In this document: positions 10,759 to 63,759 of the stretch, piece after piece
Layout: every line of letters begins with the position of its first letter
Position numbering within the stretch: the stretch's first letter is position 1
Source: Armatimonadota bacterium
GTDB taxonomy: Bacteria > Armatimonadota > Fimbriimonadia > Fimbriimonadales > Fimbriimonadaceae
Direction of reading: 5' to 3'
DNA length: 64,000 nucleotides
Assembly (NCBI GenBank): GCA_018268315.1
Contig: JAFDWU010000001.1
Location: 163,280 to 227,279 of the forward strand
Notes under the pieces: generated by a model
The model's input: only the letters and a program-made list of their open reading frames with translations
Told to the model about the DNA's origin: nothing
Database searches by the model: none
Translations under genes and position numbers: made by a program

Positions 10759-11640
10759 ATGACCGACGAAGAGCGCGCGAGATTTGACGAAGCCAGCCAG
10801 GAGAGCATCCGCAACGGCGGGCTGCCACTAAACGCGATCGCGCGGCTGCAAGAGCAGGAAAAGCGGCACGGCACTCCAGAGCAGTTCTTCTCATCCGACT
10901 TAAGCGTAAACGAGCTTCTGCTAACCCGCCAATGCGGGTACGAGCCGCTTGGGCAGGTGATGGGAAGCTGCGTTTACAACGTGGGCTGGCAGTACATCCC
11001 GCAGGGCGTTTGGGTTTACAGTTCGCAGGAGTTCTCGGTGCTGAGCGGCGCGCACATGGAAGCGCGCAAACTCGCCTTTAACCGATTGCAGCAGGAGGCG
11101 GCGCTGCTGAAGGCAGACGGGGTGGTGGGTGTTCGCTTCATCCGGAAGGGCGAGGGGCTTTTCCAGAACGGGCTTGAATATATCGCCCTTGGCACCGCGG
11201 TGCGGGCGATTAACGAAAAGGATCGCTATCCTGGGCCTCCGTTTGTTTCCAACCTCACCGGCCAGCAGCATTACGCCCTAAGGCAGGAAGGCTTCCGGCC
11301 GGTGGGGTTTGTGTTTGGCAACTGCACCTGGCTTCAGTATCCAGACTGGCGAAGCCAGAACGCGCTCCTTAGTTTCCGCAACGCCGAGCTAACCAGCCTG
11401 ACCCAGGGCATGTACACGGCGCGCTCGCTGGCGGTGGGAAGGATGGAGGCGGAAGCTATTTCGCTGAGCGCGAAAGGGGTCGTGCAAGCGGTGATCGAGC
11501 ATTCGATCGAGGAGATCGAGGCCAACAACTCGCGCTACTTCCTCATGACATTTCTCTCGTTCGGCACCGCCATCGCATCGGATTATCGTTCTTCAGAGGT
11601 CGGCGAAGTGAAACCGATCGTCTCGCTATCCAGTAATTAA
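10759..11640 (+). CDS. tandem YbjQ-like (heavy-metal-binding fold) protein 1
   Basis: 293 residues with two related halves. Each half has a segment of the form SDLSVNELLLTRQCGYEPLG then VMGSCVYN, and a helix ARKLAFNRLQQEAALLKADGVVGVRF, which matches the YbjQ/UPF0145 core (ALxRMxxEAxxLGADAVVGV). The second half is more divergent (ARSLAVGRMEAEAISLSAKGVVQAV). YbjQ forms a pentamer; the heavy-metal-binding label rests on fold and is weakly supported. No signal peptide. It is followed 9 bases later by a paralog with the same duplicated layout. Confidence 0.75.
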   Translation: MTDEERARFDEASQESIRNGGLPLNAIARLQEQEKRHGTPEQFFSSDLSVNELLLTRQCGYEPLGQVMGSCVYNVGWQYIPQGVWVYSSQEFSVLSGAHMEARKLAFNRLQQEAALLKADGVVGVRFIRKGEGLFQNGLEYIALGTAVRAINEKDRYPGPPFVSNLTGQQHYALRQEGFRPVGFVFGNCTWLQYPDWRSQNALLSFRNAELTSLTQGMYTARSLAVGRMEAEAISLSAKGVVQAVIEHSIEEIEANNSRYFLMTFLSFGTAIASDYRSSEVGEVKPIVSLSSN

Positions 11641-40468: not shown

Positions 40469-41116
40469 GTGTTTGCCGCAGTCATCCTCGCCGCCGGGAG
40501 CGGATCGCGAGCGGGATTCGATAAGTGCTTCGAGCAACTTGGCGATAAGCCGGTTTGGCGCTGGTCTTACGACTTCTTTTCCTGGCTTGGTTACGACACG
40601 GTGGTGGTGACCTCCTCTGAGCGGCTTAAGCTGGTAACTGAGGCGGGCGCGCGAGGTATTCCAGGAGGCGAGACGCGGCAGCAAAGCTGCCGTCAGGGCG
40701 CGCTTGCAGTCGGCTCTGAGTACGTGATCATTCACGACGCCGCGCGGCCGTTTCTGACCGCTGAGGTTTTGGACCGGGTGAAAGAGGCGGCGGTGCGAGT
40801 GGGGGCGGCGGCGGCTTCCCTGCCGATGACGGACACCGTTCGCATGAGCGACGAGGGCGGTTGGCGGTTGCTTGACCGCTCGGTTTTGCGCACGATGCAG
40901 ACGCCGCAGATTATTCGGCGAGACTGGCTGCTGGAGGCTCACTCGCACTTTGCGGATGAGAGCCTGACCGACGATATTGAGCTTGTTGCGCGGATGGGGC
41001 GGCCCATCGAGCTGGTGGACGGAAGCCCATCAAACTTCAAGATCACCTACGCGGAGGACTTCGAGACGGCCCGGAAGGTGGTAAACATGCCTCCGTGGAA
41101 TTCCGAGTTGGCCTAG
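40469..41116 (+). CDS. ispD: 2-C-methyl-D-erythritol 4-phosphate cytidylyltransferase
   Basis: 215 residues from GTG. The nucleotide motif AAVILAAGSGSRAGFDKCFEQLG matches the IspD GxGxR...K form, with HDAARPFL and the TDTV strand further on. It makes CDP-methylerythritol in the non-mevalonate isoprenoid pathway. The C-terminal 22 bases overlap the start of ispF, as is common for the pair. Confidence 0.93.
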   Translation: MFAAVILAAGSGSRAGFDKCFEQLGDKPVWRWSYDFFSWLGYDTVVVTSSERLKLVTEAGARGIPGGETRQQSCRQGALAVGSEYVIIHDAARPFLTAEVLDRVKEAAVRVGAAAASLPMTDTVRMSDEGGWRLLDRSVLRTMQTPQIIRRDWLLEAHSHFADESLTDDIELVARMGRPIELVDGSPSNFKITYAEDFETARKVVNMPPWNSELA

Positions 41117-41583
41117 GCTACGACATCCACCCGTTTTCCGAATCTCCTGACCGGGAGCTTTGGCTGGGGGGCATTCGGTTTCCGGATGCGCGCCCGCTGG
41201 CGGGTCATTCCGACGCGGACGTGATTCTGCACGCGGTGGTGGATGCTCTGCTTGGTGCGGCGGGGCAAGGGGACATTGGCCAGCACTTTCCGAACACGGA
41301 CGCGCGGTGGAAGGACGCCAGCAGCAGCGCGTTCCTCACCCACGCTGTGCAGCTCATTTCCCGCCTGGGTTGGCGGGTGATGAACATCGATATCGCGGTG
41401 GTGGCGGAGGAGCCGAAGGTGATGCCGCGCGCTCAGGAGATGCGGGAGAAGATCGCGGAGATTGCGGCGATCACCGCGGATCGGGTGAATTTGAAGGCGA
41501 CGACGAACGAGAAGCTGGGCGCGATTGGTCGGGGCGAAGGCATCGCGTGCTTCGCCACGGCGTTACTTCAGAAGTCGTCGTAG
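41095..41583 (+). CDS. ispF: 2-C-methyl-D-erythritol 2,4-cyclodiphosphate synthase
   Basis: 162 residues. Start GTG at 41095 inside ispD. Metal ligands Asp10 and His12 (GYDIHPF) and the GHSDADVILHAVVDALLGA helix are intact, as is the C-terminal ATTNEKLGAIGRGEGI trimer segment. It closes the ring in the non-mevalonate isoprenoid pathway. Its last ten codons plus stop are repeated three more times downstream (42115, 42655, 43699), so this end is copy 1 of a repeat array. Confidence 0.93.
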   Translation: MEFRVGLGYDIHPFSESPDRELWLGGIRFPDARPLAGHSDADVILHAVVDALLGAAGQGDIGQHFPNTDARWKDASSSAFLTHAVQLISRLGWRVMNIDIAVVAEEPKVMPRAQEMREKIAEIAAITADRVNLKATTNEKLGAIGRGEGIACFATALLQKSS

Positions 41584-41589
41584 ACGTCT
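41549..41589 (+). repeat. ispF-end repeat, copy 1 (native ispF 3' end)
   Basis: Contains GACGGCGTTACTTCAGAAG-like core (here CCACGGCGTTACTTCAGAAG), then TCGTCGTAGACGTCT. It encodes the IspF C-terminus FATALLQKSS-stop. ACTTC-A-GAAGT is an 11-bp inverted repeat, and GTAGACGTCTAC-like bases follow the stop. Confidence 0.85.
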
Positions 41590-41607
41590 TAGGTTTGGGA
41601 CACACGA

Positions 41608-42102
41608 ATGGGCCAGATTAGAATGCGGCTTTCCCTCCTCATTATGGCGACGGCCATTGGCTGCCAAAAGAGTAGCCCTCCTGCCACGTTGCCAGTCGGT
41701 CTTGCGACCGTGAGTGGTGTGAGGCTGCGACTGATGAAATATGGAGCTGGGCTATGGATATTCTTTCAGAACAACGGGCGCCGAACGGTTATGCTAAAGC
41801 GCGAGGGGGATGCCTTTGGCAGGATAACCTTCTTCAGGAGAGACTCGGGAAACTGGAAGAGGGTTGAGGAAGTTGATCCGAATTTACGTTTGACAGACTT
41901 GATGGCGGAGCCAGATTCCAACTGGGTAACGCTCAAAACGCGCGATAAGACCATGTGGATGACAGTGCACAACTACACGGGAAACATCCAGCGCGGTGAT
42001 GACATCCGTGTAGATATGAAGCCAGCAATCTTGCCTCACGGTAAAGAAGGGATGGCTCAGTTTCCGCCTCACGAGGTTAGTTTCGAGTGTATTGTCGAAT
42101 AA
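41608..42102 (+). CDS. cassette gene A: small lipoprotein of unknown function
   Basis: 164 residues from ATG 41608; ATG 41623 gives a tidier lipoprotein signal (MRLSLLIMATAIGC). Cys19 counting from the first start is the lipobox Cys. The mature part is beta-rich and contains Asn/Arg-rich strands (LWIFFQNNGRRTVML). It begins 19 bases after the first ispF-end repeat. No family recognised, and its sequence is unrelated to the following cassettes. Confidence 0.65.
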   Translation: MGQIRMRLSLLIMATAIGCQKSSPPATLPVGLATVSGVRLRLMKYGAGLWIFFQNNGRRTVMLKREGDAFGRITFFRRDSGNWKRVEEVDPNLRLTDLMAEPDSNWVTLKTRDKTMWMTVHNYTGNIQRGDDIRVDMKPAILPHGKEGMAQFPPHEVSFECIVE

Positions 42103-42114
42103 CGGGGCGCAAAT

Positions 42115-42152
42115 GCTTCGCGACGCTGTTACTTCAGAAGTCGTAAACGTCT
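42115..42152 (+). repeat. ispF-end repeat, copy 2
   Basis: GCTTCGCGACGCTGTTACTTCAGAAGTCGTAAACGTCT, split here as GACGCTGTTACTTCAGAAG and TCGTAAACGTCTACACATTT (which runs on to 42160). Read in the ispF frame it gives FATLLLQKS-stop. The bases after the stop also match copy 4. Confidence 0.85.
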
Positions 42153-42163
42153 ACACATTTGCA

Positions 42164-42634
42164 ATGACTGCAATTGCCATTCTCGGGCTCTTGACGGCTG
42201 GGCACCGCGACACGGTGATCCCGATTGAGAAGTGCCTACGCCTTAAGTGCGACGTAATTCAAGACAGGGGCTACTTGAAGTCCTTCGTCATCAATGTGAA
42301 AAACATCTCAAAGCGCACTCTCGTCGCTGCTGATTTGTCGCATGCTGGGGGGCTTTGGATTGAAAAGGTGAGATACGATGATGGGATAGAGCGTAACTAC
42401 GGATTGAACCATCAACTCAAGCTCGGACCTGGGGAATCGATAAGCACGACAATCCTTGCGGGTGGCTTCAGTGACTTTAAGGGTAGTCATCAAACCGTCC
42501 ACTTTGAATACAGTCAGCCAGACGGATACCAAGTACTTGACCCGCACCACGTGAGGCTAAAGGGAAGTCTGATCTCTAAGAAATACAATCTCACCTATAG
42601 CTCGCAAGGTATCCGAGTGAGCACCGTAAAATGA
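42164..42634 (+). CDS. cassette gene B: small exported protein, paralog of cassette D
   Basis: 156 residues from ATG 42164, chosen because the paralog at 43745 cannot extend further upstream. A short hydrophobic N-terminus (MTAIAILGLLTAGHR) suggests a signal peptide. Shared features with the paralog: TVIPIEKCL, NISKRTLV, YGLNH, ES, FKGSH.TVHFEY, QPDGYQ.LDP, HVRLKG, ISKKY.LTY, GIRVSTVK. Beta-sandwich-like. Function unknown. Confidence 0.7.
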   Translation: MTAIAILGLLTAGHRDTVIPIEKCLRLKCDVIQDRGYLKSFVINVKNISKRTLVAADLSHAGGLWIEKVRYDDGIERNYGLNHQLKLGPGESISTTILAGGFSDFKGSHQTVHFEYSQPDGYQVLDPHHVRLKGSLISKKYNLTYSSQGIRVSTVK

Positions 42635-42654
42635 AAATTGCCACCATGTGGCAA

Positions 42655-42695
42655 GCTTCGCGACGGCGTTACTTCAGAAGCAGTCGTAGACGTCT
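42655..42695 (+). repeat. ispF-end repeat, copy 3
   Basis: GACGGCGTTACTTCAGAAG is identical to the core consensus, followed by CAGTCGTAGACGTCT. In the ispF frame it reads SFATALLQKQS-stop, with an in-frame extra Gln codon relative to copy 1. It lies 18 bases after cassette gene B. Confidence 0.85.
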
Positions 42696-42783
42696 GAACA
42701 TACATCGAGTGCGCGATGCAACCAGATTTAACAGGCACGATATTGGCCCGGCTCAGTTGCCCAAAGTGTATGAAGGGAGTTAG

Positions 42784-43626
42784 TTGTATTTCCTGACCAT
42801 CGCTGTACGCTTGCTTCTGGCTAGAGCCGTTTGGCTATTCCATGCAACTGCAAGCCCCGCGGGCTCGATATGGCTCACTGCGAATACAGTCACCGCAAGT
42901 GAAGTTGCACGGGCGGCGAAGATCCCGCTTCCGAATTCTCAAGGATGGCGTGTTGAAAGGATCATTGCGAACAAAGAAGGCTCCCTTATTGCGGTAACGG
43001 GAAGACAAAAGGAAAGGTCCAGCATTTGGTTTGTCAGCCCGGATGGGTTAAGGGTTGTGGGGCGGGCAGATTTCCGCAACCCGATTTCGGATCCAATTTG
43101 GACTGACAAGTTAACCCTGGTGCTGAATCAGAGCGATGTGCATGGGCAATCTGCTGTGGTGCAGGTCAATAGAGGCACGTCGTGTCGGGTCACTTACACC
43201 CCGCTGCTGTCACACCAAGAAGAAACGCTGCATGCAGCTGAGGCAGTGGAGGTTGTGAACCGCCAGAACCTCAAGCAAACGAGGACTCTTCACGCACCGA
43301 GTGGTTTCAGCTCGGATGCATTCGGCAATCACGCAGGAACCCTTCTCGTCTCCCCGAATGGGAGGGTGATTGCAGTAAATGCACAAAGCGGGTTGCCAGG
43401 AGCAGTCTCCCAGGTGCAATTGTTCGTCATTCAGAGAACAGGGCATGGCTGGAACTCAAACAGCCTCGGGCCGCTGCCACACACAGCTTGGCTTGTAATG
43501 GCGGATCGCTTTCTCGCTGCTCTAAGCAATATGGCAGCTGGTGGTACGTGCGTGGTTTACAATCTAGAAACCTTACGGCCGATCGCGGCGTTCGACGCCG
43601 ACGCGGTTGAGCTCGTAAGTAGGTAG
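42784..43626 (+). CDS. cassette gene C: exported protein, propeller-like
   Basis: 280 residues from TTG 42784, preceded by GGGAG. A long hydrophobic N-terminal stretch (ITVRLLLARAVWLF-like) suggests export. The rest is beta-rich with repeated patterns (IAVTGRQKERSSIWFVSPDG and LLVSPNGRVIAVNAQSG) resembling a WD40/TolB-type propeller. No family named. It follows the third ispF-end repeat by 88 bases. Confidence 0.6.
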   Translation: MYFLTIAVRLLLARAVWLFHATASPAGSIWLTANTVTASEVARAAKIPLPNSQGWRVERIIANKEGSLIAVTGRQKERSSIWFVSPDGLRVVGRADFRNPISDPIWTDKLTLVLNQSDVHGQSAVVQVNRGTSCRVTYTPLLSHQEETLHAAEAVEVVNRQNLKQTRTLHAPSGFSSDAFGNHAGTLLVSPNGRVIAVNAQSGLPGAVSQVQLFVIQRTGHGWNSNSLGPLPHTAWLVMADRFLAALSNMAAGGTCVVYNLETLRPIAAFDADAVELVSR

Positions 43627-43698
43627 CGACCCTGTGAGTGCGGAACGAGTAGCATGGAATCTCAGAGTTAGTGAACAGGAGTATCCTCAAAGCTGATT

Positions 43699-43740
43699 GG
43701 CGACGGCGTTGCTTCAGAAGTCGTAAACGTCTACACATTT
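43699..43740 (+). repeat. ispF-end repeat, copy 4
   Basis: GACGGCGTTGCTTCAGAAG then TCGTAAACGTCTACACATTT. In the ispF frame it reads LATALLQKS-stop. One synonymous change (TTA to TTG) separates its core from copy 3. The downstream bases are identical to those after copy 2. Confidence 0.85.
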
Positions 43741-43744
43741 ACTT

Positions 43745-44212
43745 ATGAATGCAATTGCCATTCTCGGACTCCTGACGGCTGTTCACCACGACACGGTGAT
43801 CCCGATTGAGAAGTGTTTGGAGTTTCGGTGCGACCTTTCCCAACGGTTGGGTTTTCTTCAAGAATTCAAAGTAACTGTCAGGAATATTTCAAAGCGCACT
43901 CTTGTCACTGGTGACTTAAGCTTTGGCGGTGGGCTTTGGCTTTATATGGTCCGAGATGATGGCATTGAGACCAATTACGGTCTAAATCACTCGTATAGGC
44001 TCAAGCCAGGAGAATCCCTTAATCGCACGTTCAGCGCTAAATCCTTTAGCAACTTCAAGGGAAGTCACCGCACCGTTCAATTCGAGTACAGGCAACCCGA
44101 CGGCTATCAGGACCTTGATCCAAATCACGTTCGGCTGAAGGGCAAGTTCCTTTCAAAGAAGTACGATCTCACCTACACGTCTCTAGGAATCCGCGTGAGC
44201 ACCGTAAAATGA
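43745..44212 (+). CDS. cassette gene D: paralog of cassette gene B
   Basis: 155 residues, about 60% identical by eye to cassette B, with the same hydrophobic N-terminus (MNAIAILGLLTAVHH), YGLNHSYRLKPGESL, FKGSHRTVQFEYRQPDGYQDLDPNHVRLKG (as shorter blocks) and GIRVSTVK end. No Shine-Dalgarno is evident. An in-frame stop just upstream fixes the start. Copy and gene together resemble copy 2 plus gene B, so this is a duplicated unit. Confidence 0.7.
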   Translation: MNAIAILGLLTAVHHDTVIPIEKCLEFRCDLSQRLGFLQEFKVTVRNISKRTLVTGDLSFGGGLWLYMVRDDGIETNYGLNHSYRLKPGESLNRTFSAKSFSNFKGSHRTVQFEYRQPDGYQDLDPNHVRLKGKFLSKKYDLTYTSLGIRVSTVK

Positions 44213-44248
44213 AATTCATTGTTCAAATTCGATCTTGCTAGGATATCG

Positions 44249-44989
44249 ATGATAGGTTTGCTGGCCGCCCTTGGGATCGCACAGGCAACAACCTTGGTCG
44301 CCGCGCCGCGGCTGATCGACGTCAACGACCAACGCCCGTCGGCTGGTGTTGAGCGCGCCAGATATCTCGAATCTCAGCGGTTACGATTCCTCGAAGCCAT
44401 CCAAGCAAAGTATATTTCAGAGCCTATTGCAGCGCACTCGGACGTCCTGTTTCCGTTCTGCAGATCGGACATGGTGTATGTGCTCGTTGGAGACAGTGAA
44501 GGTGAGAATCGAATACCTTATCAGAGAGCACTTTACTGTTTCAGCTGGAACGGAACGCGCTGCACTAAGAAATTCTGTCTGGAGCTGGTTGAACGTTCTC
44601 GAAGGGGAACAGGAAAGCCTCATGTCAGCATGTTAGATTATTTAGAGCATCCAGCCTTTATCCAAACTTCCACTGTTTTGCTCCCAAAGAAGACCAGTAA
44701 GTCAATTCACTCCGAGTTGGCTCGGCCGTTAGAGCTTATTGAGTATAGTTATTCCGAGGTTCCTGGAATCCTTTGGATTCATAGGATTTTGCCAGAAGAT
44801 TCCTATGGACCGGCCCCATTCTACCAAAGTGCTGACGCCTACGATCTTAAAACGCCTAACGGCAATTACAACCTCTTAAAGCTTATGGCTGTTGAGTACG
44901 GGCTCCCACTCCATAGAACTGAGGTTATGGCCCTGACGGGGCAAGCGGTTTTACCGGGACAGCGACCGCCGGATTCAAGCACGAAGTAA
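44249..44989 (+). CDS. exported protein of unknown function
   Basis: 246 residues from ATG 44249, which has AGGAT about 6 bases upstream; the TTG at 44219 adds 10 residues. A signal peptide (MIGLLAALGIAQATTLVAAP) is followed by a mature part with Cys pairs and Tyr-rich stretches. No family recognised. It follows the paralog B/D gene by 36 bases without an ispF-end repeat in between. Confidence 0.65.
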   Translation: MIGLLAALGIAQATTLVAAPRLIDVNDQRPSAGVERARYLESQRLRFLEAIQAKYISEPIAAHSDVLFPFCRSDMVYVLVGDSEGENRIPYQRALYCFSWNGTRCTKKFCLELVERSRRGTGKPHVSMLDYLEHPAFIQTSTVLLPKKTSKSIHSELARPLELIEYSYSEVPGILWIHRILPEDSYGPAPFYQSADAYDLKTPNGNYNLLKLMAVEYGLPLHRTEVMALTGQAVLPGQRPPDSSTK

Positions 44990-45047: not shown

Positions 45048-45704
45048 TCAATAGTCCTCGTAATCGAAATCCATATCCGGGCGCCCGCTGGCGTAGACCA
45101 CGCCCATCACCACGCTCGCTCCTGCTCGCTTGAGCTCCTGCGAGCAGAGGCGCATGGTCTCGCCGGAGGTGAAGACGTCGTCCACCAGCAGCACCGATAG
45201 CCCCTGGCAAGGCTGCGCGCGGAACGCCCCATCCAGGTTCTTGCGTCGATCCTCTTGGCTTAACCCCGCCTGAGAGCGGGTGCGCCGCACGCGGCGCAGC
45301 AGAGACGGCTGCACAGTGAAGGGCAGATCGCGGCAAAGCAGCGTCGCCTGGTTGAAGCCTCGGTGGGCGGCGCGAGACCAGTGGATGGGCACCGGAACCA
45401 CGACGTCAGGCGCGAGGCGGTTATCCCGAACCAATTGGGCGATCTCGGCCCCCATCGGCGCGGCAAGCGCGGTTTGGCGATGGTATTTCAGGCGTCGGAT
45501 CGCTTGGCGGGCGCGGGATTCGTAGGCGTAGACGGCGAGGATGCTGTCAAGGTCCGACGGGACGGCGTCGAGGTCCATGGAAGCGGGGACCATCTCGCCC
45601 CGGCAGCTATCGCATATCGGCGAAGGGGAATCGAGCCCACACAAAGCGCACACAGGCGGATAGGGCAGGCTTATCGCAAACTCGGCCAGCTCCCGCACGG
45701 TCAT
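45048..45704 (-). CDS. comF: ComF-family phosphoribosyltransferase-like protein
   Basis: 218 residues. A Cys-rich N-terminus (CALCGLDSPSPICDSC) resembles the ComF zinc finger, and the C-terminal part is a PRTase fold with LLVDDVFTSGETM, the PRPP-binding loop. ComF acts in natural transformation downstream of DNA uptake in Gram-positive and other bacteria. It is separated from the next gene by a terminator. A DprA-like gene lies 700 bases away, which fits a competence link. Confidence 0.85.
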   Translation of the reverse strand: MTVRELAEFAISLPYPPVCALCGLDSPSPICDSCRGEMVPASMDLDAVPSDLDSILAVYAYESRARQAIRRLKYHRQTALAAPMGAEIAQLVRDNRLAPDVVVPVPIHWSRAAHRGFNQATLLCRDLPFTVQPSLLRRVRRTRSQAGLSQEDRRKNLDGAFRAQPCQGLSVLLVDDVFTSGETMRLCSQELKRAGASVVMGVVYASGRPDMDFDYEDY

Positions 45705-57322: not shown

Positions 57323-57396
57323 TGCCCGCTCGTCTAATGGCAGGACGACAGGTTCTGGCCCTGTTAATCGAGGTTCGAATCCTTGGCGGGCAGCCA
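57323..57396 (+). tRNA. tRNA-Gln (anticodon CTG)
   Basis: 74 bases: acceptor TGCCCGC/GCGGGCA, anticodon loop TTCTGGC (CTG, reads CAG), T arm GAGGTTCGAATCC, discriminator G and an encoded CCA (57394-57396). Its last 19 bases are repeated twice more downstream (57478, 57576). Confidence 0.95.
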
Positions 57397-57419: not shown

Positions 57420-57477
57420 AAACCTGGCTCGCGCGGCACGGATCATTGAAGTCGCGAGCGAAGCGAGAGACGCCAAT

Positions 57478-57496
57478 AATCCTTGGCGGGCAGCCA
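57478..57496 (+). repeat. tRNA-Gln 3'-end repeat, copy 2
   Basis: AATCCTTGGCGGGCAGCCA is identical to the last 19 bases of tRNA-Gln, including CCA. It ends a 100-base unit that contains CACGGATCATTGAAG at 57437-57451. Confidence 0.9.
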
Positions 57497-57500
57497 CTAT

Positions 57501-57519
57501 TGTTGGCCTTTGGCCAACA
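57501..57519 (+). terminator. hairpin 2 after the copy-2 repeat
   Basis: TGTTGGCC-TTT-GGCCAACA, a perfect 8-bp stem. It has the same position in its unit as hairpin 1, but a different sequence. Confidence 0.4.
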
Positions 57520-57575
57520 TATTTGTCTCCCGACACGGATCATTGAAGCTTCGAGCGTCAGCGAGGAGCGCCAAT

Positions 57576-57594
57576 AATCCTTGGCGGGCAGCCA
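57576..57594 (+). repeat. tRNA-Gln 3'-end repeat, copy 3
   Basis: A third AATCCTTGGCGGGCAGCCA. Its unit (97-98 bases) shares CACGGATCATTGAAG (57534-57548) with the preceding unit, at the same offset. Confidence 0.9.
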
Positions 57595-60027: not shown

Positions 60028-60146
60028 TAGCAGACATCATGCGTCAAGCATTGCCCAGATTGTAACGCTAACGACCATCAAGTCAGGCAGTCTGCCTGTT
60101 CCTTCAACGATAAGCACCGGCCGGACTCTACTCAGCGCTCTCGATC

Positions 60147-63122: not shown

Positions 63123-63180
63123 GTCTTGATTAGATTGTAACGCTGACGACCATCGCATCGGCGGTCCGTCTGTTCCTTCA

Positions 63181-63759
63181 ATGACTACCGAGCGGCTGGA
63201 GGCGTTTACCGATGGCGTGATCGCTATCATCATCACCGTCATGCTGCTGGAGTTCAAGACACCGACCGGGTCCAGCATCACCGACTTGCAGGCCACGTGG
63301 CCGCTTCTGGTCAGCTACACACTGAGCTATGTCAATCTCGGCATCTACTGGAACAACCACCATCACATGTTTCAGGCGGTGGAGCATCTTAACGGCAGGG
63401 TTCTCTGGGCAAACCTGCACCTATTGTTCTGGCTTTCGATGATTCCCTTTGCAACGAACTGGGCAAGCGTGAGTTCCTACGCGCCGACTCCGGTGGCGAT
63501 TTACGGAATAGTTCTACTGCTTGCAGGGGCCGCGTACTCCCTGCTCACGCGAGCGTTGGTGAGCGCGAACGGGAAGGATTCGGTATTCGCGAAGGGCTTG
63601 GGCAGCGATACGAAGGGATTCGCCTCGCTGATTATCTACACCATCGGGGTGGGGGTGGCCCACTTCCAGCCCTACGTTGCGTTCGGACTTTACGTGGTGG
63701 TTGCAGTCATGTGGTTCATTCCAGACCGCCGCTTTGAGCGCGCTCGCCAAGAATCTTGA
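63181..63759 (+). CDS. TMEM175-family potassium channel protein
   Basis: 192 residues. The N-terminal motif ERLEAFTDGVIAIIITVMLLE is the signature helix of the TMEM175/DUF1211 family, which forms K+ or proton channels. About five more hydrophobic helices follow (WPLLVSYTLSYVNLGIYWNN, IYGIVLLLAGAAYSLLT). Starts just after the TolB-like gene's upstream region. Confidence 0.85.
   Translation: MTTERLEAFTDGVIAIIITVMLLEFKTPTGSSITDLQATWPLLVSYTLSYVNLGIYWNNHHHMFQAVEHLNGRVLWANLHLLFWLSMIPFATNWASVSSYAPTPVAIYGIVLLLAGAAYSLLTRALVSANGKDSVFAKGLGSDTKGFASLIIYTIGVGVAHFQPYVAFGLYVVVAVMWFIPDRRFERARQES

Follow-up and report, generated by a model that had tools for sequence, protein, structure and literature searches.

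We begin by considering the described systems that come closest to the locus of this study. In the T6SS immunity-gene arrays of Vibrio cholerae, old material has been pushed downstream, once together with the 3' end of an old effector gene, and the relevant sections of the paper show no sign that an integrase took part (PMC5361080). Orphan cdiA-CT/cdiI or rhs modules are likewise attributed, in the cited part of the source, to sequential displacement behind an anchor gene (PMC6336857). The minimal mobile elements of Neisseria, as the relevant section presents them, are whole-gene cassettes between two conserved genes and move by homologous recombination (PMC3082526). SGI1 is described as an integrative element that sits at the 3' end of trmE and leaves this protein-gene end complete (PMC8409611). 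Finally, a study of short variable segments finds, in the portion used here, that known mobile elements do not account for most of them and that 10-18% have flanking direct repeats, mostly <30 bp, for which illegitimate recombination is proposed (PMC2884548).

The stretch of DNA that we analysed (the window, 64,000 nucleotides) comes from an Armatimonadota bacterium of the Fimbriimonadaceae. In it, a 3.4-kb array sits between ispF and a gene that we take to be comF-like, and contains four copies (R1 to R4) of a short repeat, R, and five small genes (g1 to g5):

41095..41583, plus strand: ispF (IspF, YgbB family), an ORF with a match to Pfam PF02542 (E 8e-64), with R1 at its 3' end
41549..41589, plus strand: R1, 41 nt, the native ispF end, its stop, then ACGTCT
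41608..42102, plus strand: g1, an ORF of 164 aa, N terminus lipoprotein-like by eye, no Pfam or PHROG match
42115..42152, plus strand: R2, 38 nt, from the repeat alignment
42164..42634, plus strand: g2, an ORF of 156 aa that aligns with g4, exported-protein-like by eye
42655..42695, plus strand: R3, 41 nt, from the repeat alignment
42784..43626, plus strand: g3, an ORF of 280 aa
43695..43732, plus strand: R4, 38 nt, its leftmost 5 bases less alike
43745..44212, plus strand: g4, 155 aa, a paralog of g2 (69% identity)
44219..44989, plus strand: g5, 256 aa, a fifth orphan gene directly after g4, with no R behind it
45048..45704, minus strand: comF-like gene, the right border of the array; comF lies <=3.5 kb from ispF in 17 of 35 relatives

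The repeat consists of the last ~10 ispF codons, the stop and 6 bases, and its four copies of 38-41 nt are all in frame. A sequence-only reading of this DNA had already noticed four ispF ends with core spacings of 566, 540 and 1040; the copies are borne out and the spacings are exact, while the start it gave for the fourth copy (43699) falls in the inner part of R4. Pairs of R score 18-32; when the bases of the 5.5-kb region are shuffled 200 times, the best pair reaches 16. The copies are 82-93% alike in BLAST pieces. The genome search that the same reading proposed finds a 20-base core (<=3 mismatches) at four sites in 2.8 Mb, all in the array and with 0-2 mismatches each, so that R by this measure is absent elsewhere in the genome; the reversed pattern, used as a control, gives 2 matches genome-wide. 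A 15-base core has at least 120 matches in viral contigs, which we take as chance. As had been claimed, frame and stop are kept in every copy, but the differences are not all synonymous: in copy 2 a GCG codon is replaced by CTG (Ala to Leu), and where copy 1 reads TCG, copy 3 reads CAG (Gln). The extra codon, assigned earlier to copy 3 only, is present in copies 1 and 3 and missing from copies 2 and 4. The edges are nearly sharp, in that R2 and R3 share their left start base and all four copies share their right end base.

The stretches between copies hold single genes, as first described, of 495, 471 and 843 bases including stops, a cassette-like tandem cargo of low GC (array 0.51, flanks 0.60). 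An R copy precedes each of g1 to g4 and does not precede g5. None of g1 to g5 has a significant Pfam or PHROG match, and the predicted structures of g2 and g3 (mean pLDDT 46 and 47.5) are too poor for a structure search. Weak relatives of g1 (22-30% identity) and of g3 (23-24%) each occur in 2 of 290 other genomes of the phylum; one distant g1 relative, in L341, sits after an Rhs-like gene, so named by eye. For g3 we find no relative in plasmids, and for g2 none among 112 other genomes of the class and none in viral contigs or phages. The sole relative of g5 in 291 genomes of the phylum (G000:C2:204173-204832, 32% identity, E 6e-21) lies in the same genome as the array, where it is the cargo of another repeat-flanked insert.

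Can the array be a plain tandem duplication of the ispF end with its following gene, which then diverged? The paralogy of g2 and g4, in line with the two paralogs noticed by the sequence-only reading, is what such a duplication would leave. We also looked for hidden homology of g1, g3 and g5 to this pair and detected none; only g2 and g4 are related, although the R copies are 82-93% alike, and g1 and g3 each have their own distant relatives elsewhere in the family. A simple duplication covers at most R2-g2/R4-g4 and leaves g1, g3 and g5 unexplained, and we regard it as highly improbable.

The R2-g2 and R4-g4 blocks nevertheless deserve a closer look. They form one longer homologous block of 528 nt (71%) whose likeness begins inside R. 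Between R2 and R4, 5 of the 17 left positions differ and 0 of the 29 right positions (Fisher p=0.0045, with the breakpoint picked after looking); without the doubtful left edge of R4 the contrast is 3/12 against 0/29 (p=0.02). The contrast suggests a crossover within R. One may then ask whether recombination between short repeats alone could have built the array, with RecA-type or slippage events duplicating, deleting and exchanging cassettes among relatives once a first R-gene-R unit was present. The 29 identical bases of R2 and R4, and a length of R above 30 bp, the E. coli RecA threshold quoted in the part of PMC2884548 used here, are consistent with such events. The other five R pairs now match exactly over 11-18 nt at most, however, and the origin of the first repeat pair and of the loci described below would be left unexplained, so that as a full account this is rather unlikely. 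The same match lengths bear on mis-assembly, which we have considered: 11-18 identical bases in five of the six R pairs would be few for the usual graph joins, while R2 and R4 share 29.

We turn our attention to the relatives. The flanks of ispF were compared, as had been proposed, in 35 relatives, with no second genome of the same genus among them, and the ispF end is unrepeated in 35/35. The ribosome-hibernation gene hpf (family confirmed) adjoins ispF in 26/35; where comF is near, hpf is beside ispF in 14/17 and is lacking there in 3/17. In our genome hpf has no match anywhere. Since the relatives lack a repeated ispF end and most have hpf beside ispF, while here hpf is absent and the array is present, the array is, as judged by this comparison, an insertion relative to these relatives. 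The earlier proposal, that DNA was inserted repeatedly behind a protein gene whose 3' end each insert restored, is supported by this, by the retained frame and stop and by the low GC of the cargo. We know of no relative with a single cassette.

How does this arrangement compare with the described systems? Like the arrays grown by sequential displacement, it has an intact anchor gene followed by cargo, with a remnant of the anchor's 3' end before each of g1 to g4. Unlike the T6SS, cdi and rhs arrays, its anchor gene encodes the housekeeping protein IspF and not a polymorphic toxin or secreted effector; the displaced remnant covers just ~10 codons and has an edge that recurs, and the cargo has no family match or known function. 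The Neisseria elements are described as alternatives at one place, whereas the ispF cassettes are stacked. Nor is stacking behind one gene end described for the short variable segments in the portion of PMC2884548 used here. As in SGI1-type islands, a block of identity restores the gene end; such islands are large and encode an integrase, whereas the units here are of one or two genes, with no integrase gene (PF00589 or PF00239) among g1 to g5. With integrons and CALIN the array shares tandem single-gene cassettes between related short sites, but here the sites are the 3' end of a protein gene. Integron attC sites carry inverted core boxes, RYYYAAC and GTTRRRY, and as single strands they fold strongly. 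Neither box occurs in R1 to R4 on either strand, and R folded as single-strand DNA gives z-scores of +0.25 to -1.56 over 8 strands, that is, no stable fold. Given the missing boxes and weak folding we reject the attC reading, as the sequence-only reading had done.

In a less likely reading, a tyrosine recombinase that has since been lost, or that works in trans, would use R as its attachment site; each cassette of R and its gene would integrate through a crossover in R, in the manner of an integron but at a gene end. The shared edges, the single R before each of g1 to g4 and the possible crossover within R would fit, and the proposed search of the genome does give three matches to the general PF00589 model. 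None is in the window, which also lacks a PF00239 match, in agreement with the earlier statement that no integrase is nearby. Two of the three are presumably XerC/XerD-like; the third, a phage-type integrase, belongs to an island at a tRNA-SeC gene that has a 20-bp repeat of its own, distinct from R. The lack of a stable fold and a length of R that varies by 3 nt speak against an attachment site.

The next question is whether inserts of this build exist at other gene ends. In a sample of 59% of the genome we find four more. The imperfect direct repeats on their flanks (32-76 nt) represent unrelated gene ends, and the inserts sit at 5' as well as 3' ends. The own-genome total of five includes the ispF array, which our script sets aside since its repeats are coupled; two of six uncoupled candidate pairs (174188, 814447) have no outward gene end and are left out. 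A second locus of the window reads as follows:

60057..60110, no strand assigned: displaced 54-nt copy of the 5' region of the TMEM175 gene, 83% identical to 63132-63184 at a distance of 3075
63132..63184, plus strand: the 5' region directly before the TMEM175 gene (63181-63759; PF06736, E 3e-30)

Of two sampled relatives one, G020, has a like case at mscL and at two gene starts, and its mscL repeat is 100% identical and spans the ends of two convergent genes. An automatic gene-end rule passes 4/9 pairs in G020, two of which we inspected (the others being 286370 and 332397), and 1/8 in the other relative, G009; the G020 pair 248283 is counted by eye although it fails the rule, and G009, where one region was viewed in context, has no clear case. 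No motif common to the various repeats is seen. There are no gene-end loci in 0.33 Mb around ispF of the 35 relatives, and none in 0.82 Mb of other bacteria, a weak difference (P=0.08 at the own-genome rate). Because the other inserts share the build but not the repeat sequence, the "site-specific" part of the earlier proposal is not supported, and an attachment site in R is unlikely. End joining by Ku was also considered as a cause and rejected, as G009 has Ku but no clear case; it is not required, because G020 has the pattern without a Ku match.

Around inserts at unrelated sites in our genome and in G020, the repeats measure 30-91 nt and are 80-100% identical. These values, and the mscL repeat covering two gene ends, would be expected of insertions with a long, variable target-site duplication (by filling of a staggered break or by some unknown transposition) followed by selection at gene ends. 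Such duplication alone cannot yield four copies with one right edge. The differences between gene-end copies also tell against it: by hand tally, 12/19 coding differences fall at third codon positions (p=0.007 vs 1/3), namely 3/7 in ispF, 5/6 in a 156-aa gene and 4/6 in a dehydrogenase gene. If the three changes of the dehydrogenase gene that lie immediately beyond its BLAST alignment are taken out, the tally is 10/16 (p=0.016); two changes within the five doubtful bases at the left of R4 are not in it. Because the differences favour third codon positions, it looks as if both copies once served as gene ends. We consider target-site duplication decidedly unlikely.

Our preferred reading is that the array grew by stepwise additive insertion at the ispF end, probably through homology-anchored illegitimate recombination, and we give it a probability of about 0.52. 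Incoming DNA would carry the ispF end of a related bacterium and the gene behind that end. On recombination at ispF the newcomer's end would complete the gene, and the old end would be shifted rightward together with the gene that had followed it. R1 would then be the ispF end that arrived last, and R2, R3 and R4 earlier ones. The likely route is homology-anchored illegitimate recombination, possibly with later exchange from one short repeat to another, and purifying selection on ispF would leave as survivors the insertions with a complete end. The order of insertion, the donors and the route are what we infer. The same route is proposed for the immunity-gene arrays in the sections cited from Kirchberger et al. 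2017 (PMC5361080), a proposal that counts in favour of stepwise insertion along with the insertion relative to relatives, the low GC, the third-position bias, the like build elsewhere and the g5 relative.

Several observations count against stepwise insertion. Homology-anchored joins should give widely varying fragment lengths, whereas the displaced fragments counted in our genome are all <=91 nt (one scan was limited to 120 nt; another had no upper limit over 584 kb, and the longer pairs it gave are tandem paralogs). The common edges of R, at the start of R2 and R3 and at the end of all four, would not be expected from random joins. No ispF homology is detected upstream of the R copies: we looked there for decayed longer ispF copies and found no signal past R (anchored gapped alignment, P 0.2-0.8 vs 600 genomic samples). 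The possible crossover inside R, the lack of a known one-cassette relative and the weak control difference also weigh on this side.

The family of g5, common to the ispF array and another insert, suggests that units may pass between gene ends. A wider picture, which we hold to be doubtful, would be an integrase-free cassette economy in the Fimbriimonadaceae, whose units combine an orphan gene with a ~40-nt end of a housekeeping gene. The end would serve both as entry homology and as a spare part for the host gene, and units would stack at favoured ends such as that of ispF and move to other ends.

Most likely, the several unrelated small genes behind ispF, most of them preceded by a copy of its end, come from repeated end-restoring insertions. 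Growth by displacement is already known from arrays of toxin and effector genes; the present array is anchored on a gene of core metabolism and its displaced piece is a short in-frame gene end, with like inserts at further genes of this genome and in one of the two relatives sampled. Orphan genes bordered by short, imperfect direct repeats of a gene end form a simple sequence signature, which offers a way to count additive acquisition without mobility genes in any genome.

The 3' end of ispF occurs four times in tandem, with the spacings (566, 540 and 1040 bases) that the sequence-only reading gave it; the start given there for the fourth copy, 43699, falls inside that copy. The ispF-frame ending that it described, an LLQK-type reading with the stop at the same place, is kept in all four copies.

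Copies of the ispF 3' end in the window
R1: 41549-41589, end of ispF (last codons, stop and six more bases)
R2: 42115-42152, imperfect copy of R1
R3: 42655-42695, imperfect copy of R1
R4: 43695-43732, imperfect copy of R1

The right edge (ACGTCT) is common to the four copies; the left edge is identical in R2 and R3, and R4 is less alike over its first five bases. Upstream of the repeats no likeness to ispF is found beyond this left edge, and a search of the genome for the repeat core, which had been suggested, places it at this locus only.

We compare this arrangement with the ispF region of 35 relatives, covering about 9 kb downstream in most and less in some at contig ends; 36 genomes of the host family were available, none of the host genus. 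The ispF end is repeated in this manner in 0 of 35; nine contain an 18-base match or two, scattered and each with 3 mismatches, and these look like chance. The ribosome-hibernation gene hpf adjoins ispF in 26 of the 35, and comF lies within 3.5 kb of ispF in 17, in 14 of which hpf is beside ispF as well. In the window, a 3.4-kb array fills the interval between ispF and comF (a comF-like gene, 45048-45704, minus strand) in place of that arrangement, with a GC content of 0.51 versus 0.60 in the surroundings. The ispF array is an insertion. Neither a protein search nor the PF02482 model (positive in 11 of 14 control genomes) finds hpf in the host genome. Its absence from the ispF locus is not special, because three relatives with comF near ispF (L122, L125, L132) also have no hpf there; it is possible that the host lineage has lost the ribosome hibernation factor.

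Between and behind the repeats lie five cargo genes, g1 to g5, all on the ispF strand and without a significant match in Pfam or PHROG. Two were rightly taken for paralogs (g2 and g4, 69% identity), and profile comparison finds no kinship of g1, g3 or g5 with them. Relatives of g2/g4 are found in none of 112 other genomes of the class, while those of g1 and of g3 each occur in 2 of 290 other genomes of the phylum, all in the host's family, at 22-30% identity. At one locus (L341, 536-1998), a distant g1 relative lies directly behind a gene that by eye ends in an Rhs-like repeat; g1-type proteins could be immunity proteins.

Does this kind of insert exist elsewhere in the genome? With a single BLAST-based script, 1,654,068 of 2,805,137 bases were scanned. 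Apart from the ispF array, this yielded four loci in which a repeat contains an outward gene end (a gene start or end); two more repeat pairs are without one.

Other repeat-flanked inserts in the host genome (repeat length, identity, distance)
(a) 32 nt, 91%, 320; between leuB-like and glycosyltransferase-like genes (named by eye); cargo, a 72-aa gene
(b) 76 nt, 92%, 1690; start of a gene resembling dehydrogenases (PF03446, PF14833); cargo, a serine hydrolase of the beta-lactamase family (PF00144) with further paralogs elsewhere in the genome
(c) 54 nt, 83%, 3075; window 60057 and 63132; start of a TMEM175 gene
(d) 45 nt, 87%, 1073; 3' end (13 codons and the stop) of a 156-aa gene that matches nothing in Pfam; cargo, a g5 relative

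The inserts at (a)-(c) have a GC content of 0.52-0.54, with a weak contrast at (c), where the flank is 0.57. The sole cargo of (d) (contig C2:204173-204832) is the one relative of g5 among 291 genomes (32% identity, E 6e-21), and nothing else ties the loci together as strongly as this common family; no terminal DNA sequence is common to the inserts. Other repeated gene ends were also seen: tandem paralogs with similar 3' ends, mostly about 830 bases apart and PEP-CTERM-type by eye (L277 1212-4700; contig C1, ~124.5-128 kb), and two adjoining PEP-CTERM-type genes (by eye; C2 273150-274123) with unlike bodies that have in common a 148-nt stretch, 87% identical, comprising the 3' end and the hairpin behind it. 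Just behind a tRNA gene in the window (57323-57393), a sequence of ~97 nt stands in two head-to-tail copies (57429-57594).

In 400 kb of one relative (G020), nine pairs passed, seven of which were inspected: an identical 30-nt repeat spans the ends of a glyoxalase-like gene (by eye) and a convergent mscL (PF01741), and two other repeats are gene starts. In 400 kb of another (G009), eight pairs gave one automatic gene-end call, and most look like GC-rich hairpin-type repeats or paralogs. This genome also has a tandem paralog array (C1 1229837-1242645) in which a ~107-nt segment recurs, 87-89% identical, at several places. In the 329,660 bases of ispF regions from the 35 relatives, the scan found 3 pairs, none with a gene end; for 72 control loci from other bacteria (821,092 bases) the figures were likewise 3 and 0. 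Since the chance of 0 control gene ends at the host genome's rate is 0.08, the enrichment over control bacteria is only suggestive.

The sequence-only reading had proposed site-specific insertion. A single recombinase acting on a single site is inadequate for the class, because the repeats of different loci have no visible sequence in common, differ in length and include 5' gene ends. The sole phage-type integrase of the genome (374 aa) lies inside an island of ~15.4 kb with terminase-like and DNA-methylase-like genes (named by eye), at a tRNA-SeC gene that follows a prmC-like gene; this is an ordinary arrangement.

Repeat bounding the integrase island
20 bp: L284 (C2) 11356-11375 and C2:559943-559962, 3' end of the tRNA-SeC gene and a site 15.4 kb off

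For the ispF array we favour additive, stepwise displacement. An incoming molecule would anchor in the conserved gene by homology, its far end would join without homology, and the old ispF end with its gene would be shifted downstream. On this view two donors would have supplied g2 and g4 as versions of a single gene linked to ispF. Coding differences between gene-end copies, tallied over ispF, the 156-aa gene of (d) and the dehydrogenase-like gene of (b), fall on third positions in 12 of 19 cases (hand tally, p=0.007 against an expectation of 1/3), or 10 of 16 (p=0.016) when three changes that lie beyond the end of an alignment are left out, a bias that fits each copy having formerly been the end of a working gene. 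A purely random join of incoming DNA at ispF meets its main objection in the shortness of the displaced ends. The shared repeat edges, together with a switch, partway through the repeat, in how alike R2 and R4 are (breakpoint chosen after looking), speak for recombination within the repeat, and it is likely that later exchange between repeats was mixed with displacement.

For T6SS immunity arrays, the route favoured here at ispF was put forward by Kirchberger et al. (PMC5361080); for cdi orphans it is a hypothesis (PMC6336857). Arrays of this kind are already known. In the open-licence literature searched, no report was found of displaced housekeeping-gene ends forming a cassette array. What is new is that ispF serves as anchor, that the recurring end is tiny, and that other genes show the pattern too.
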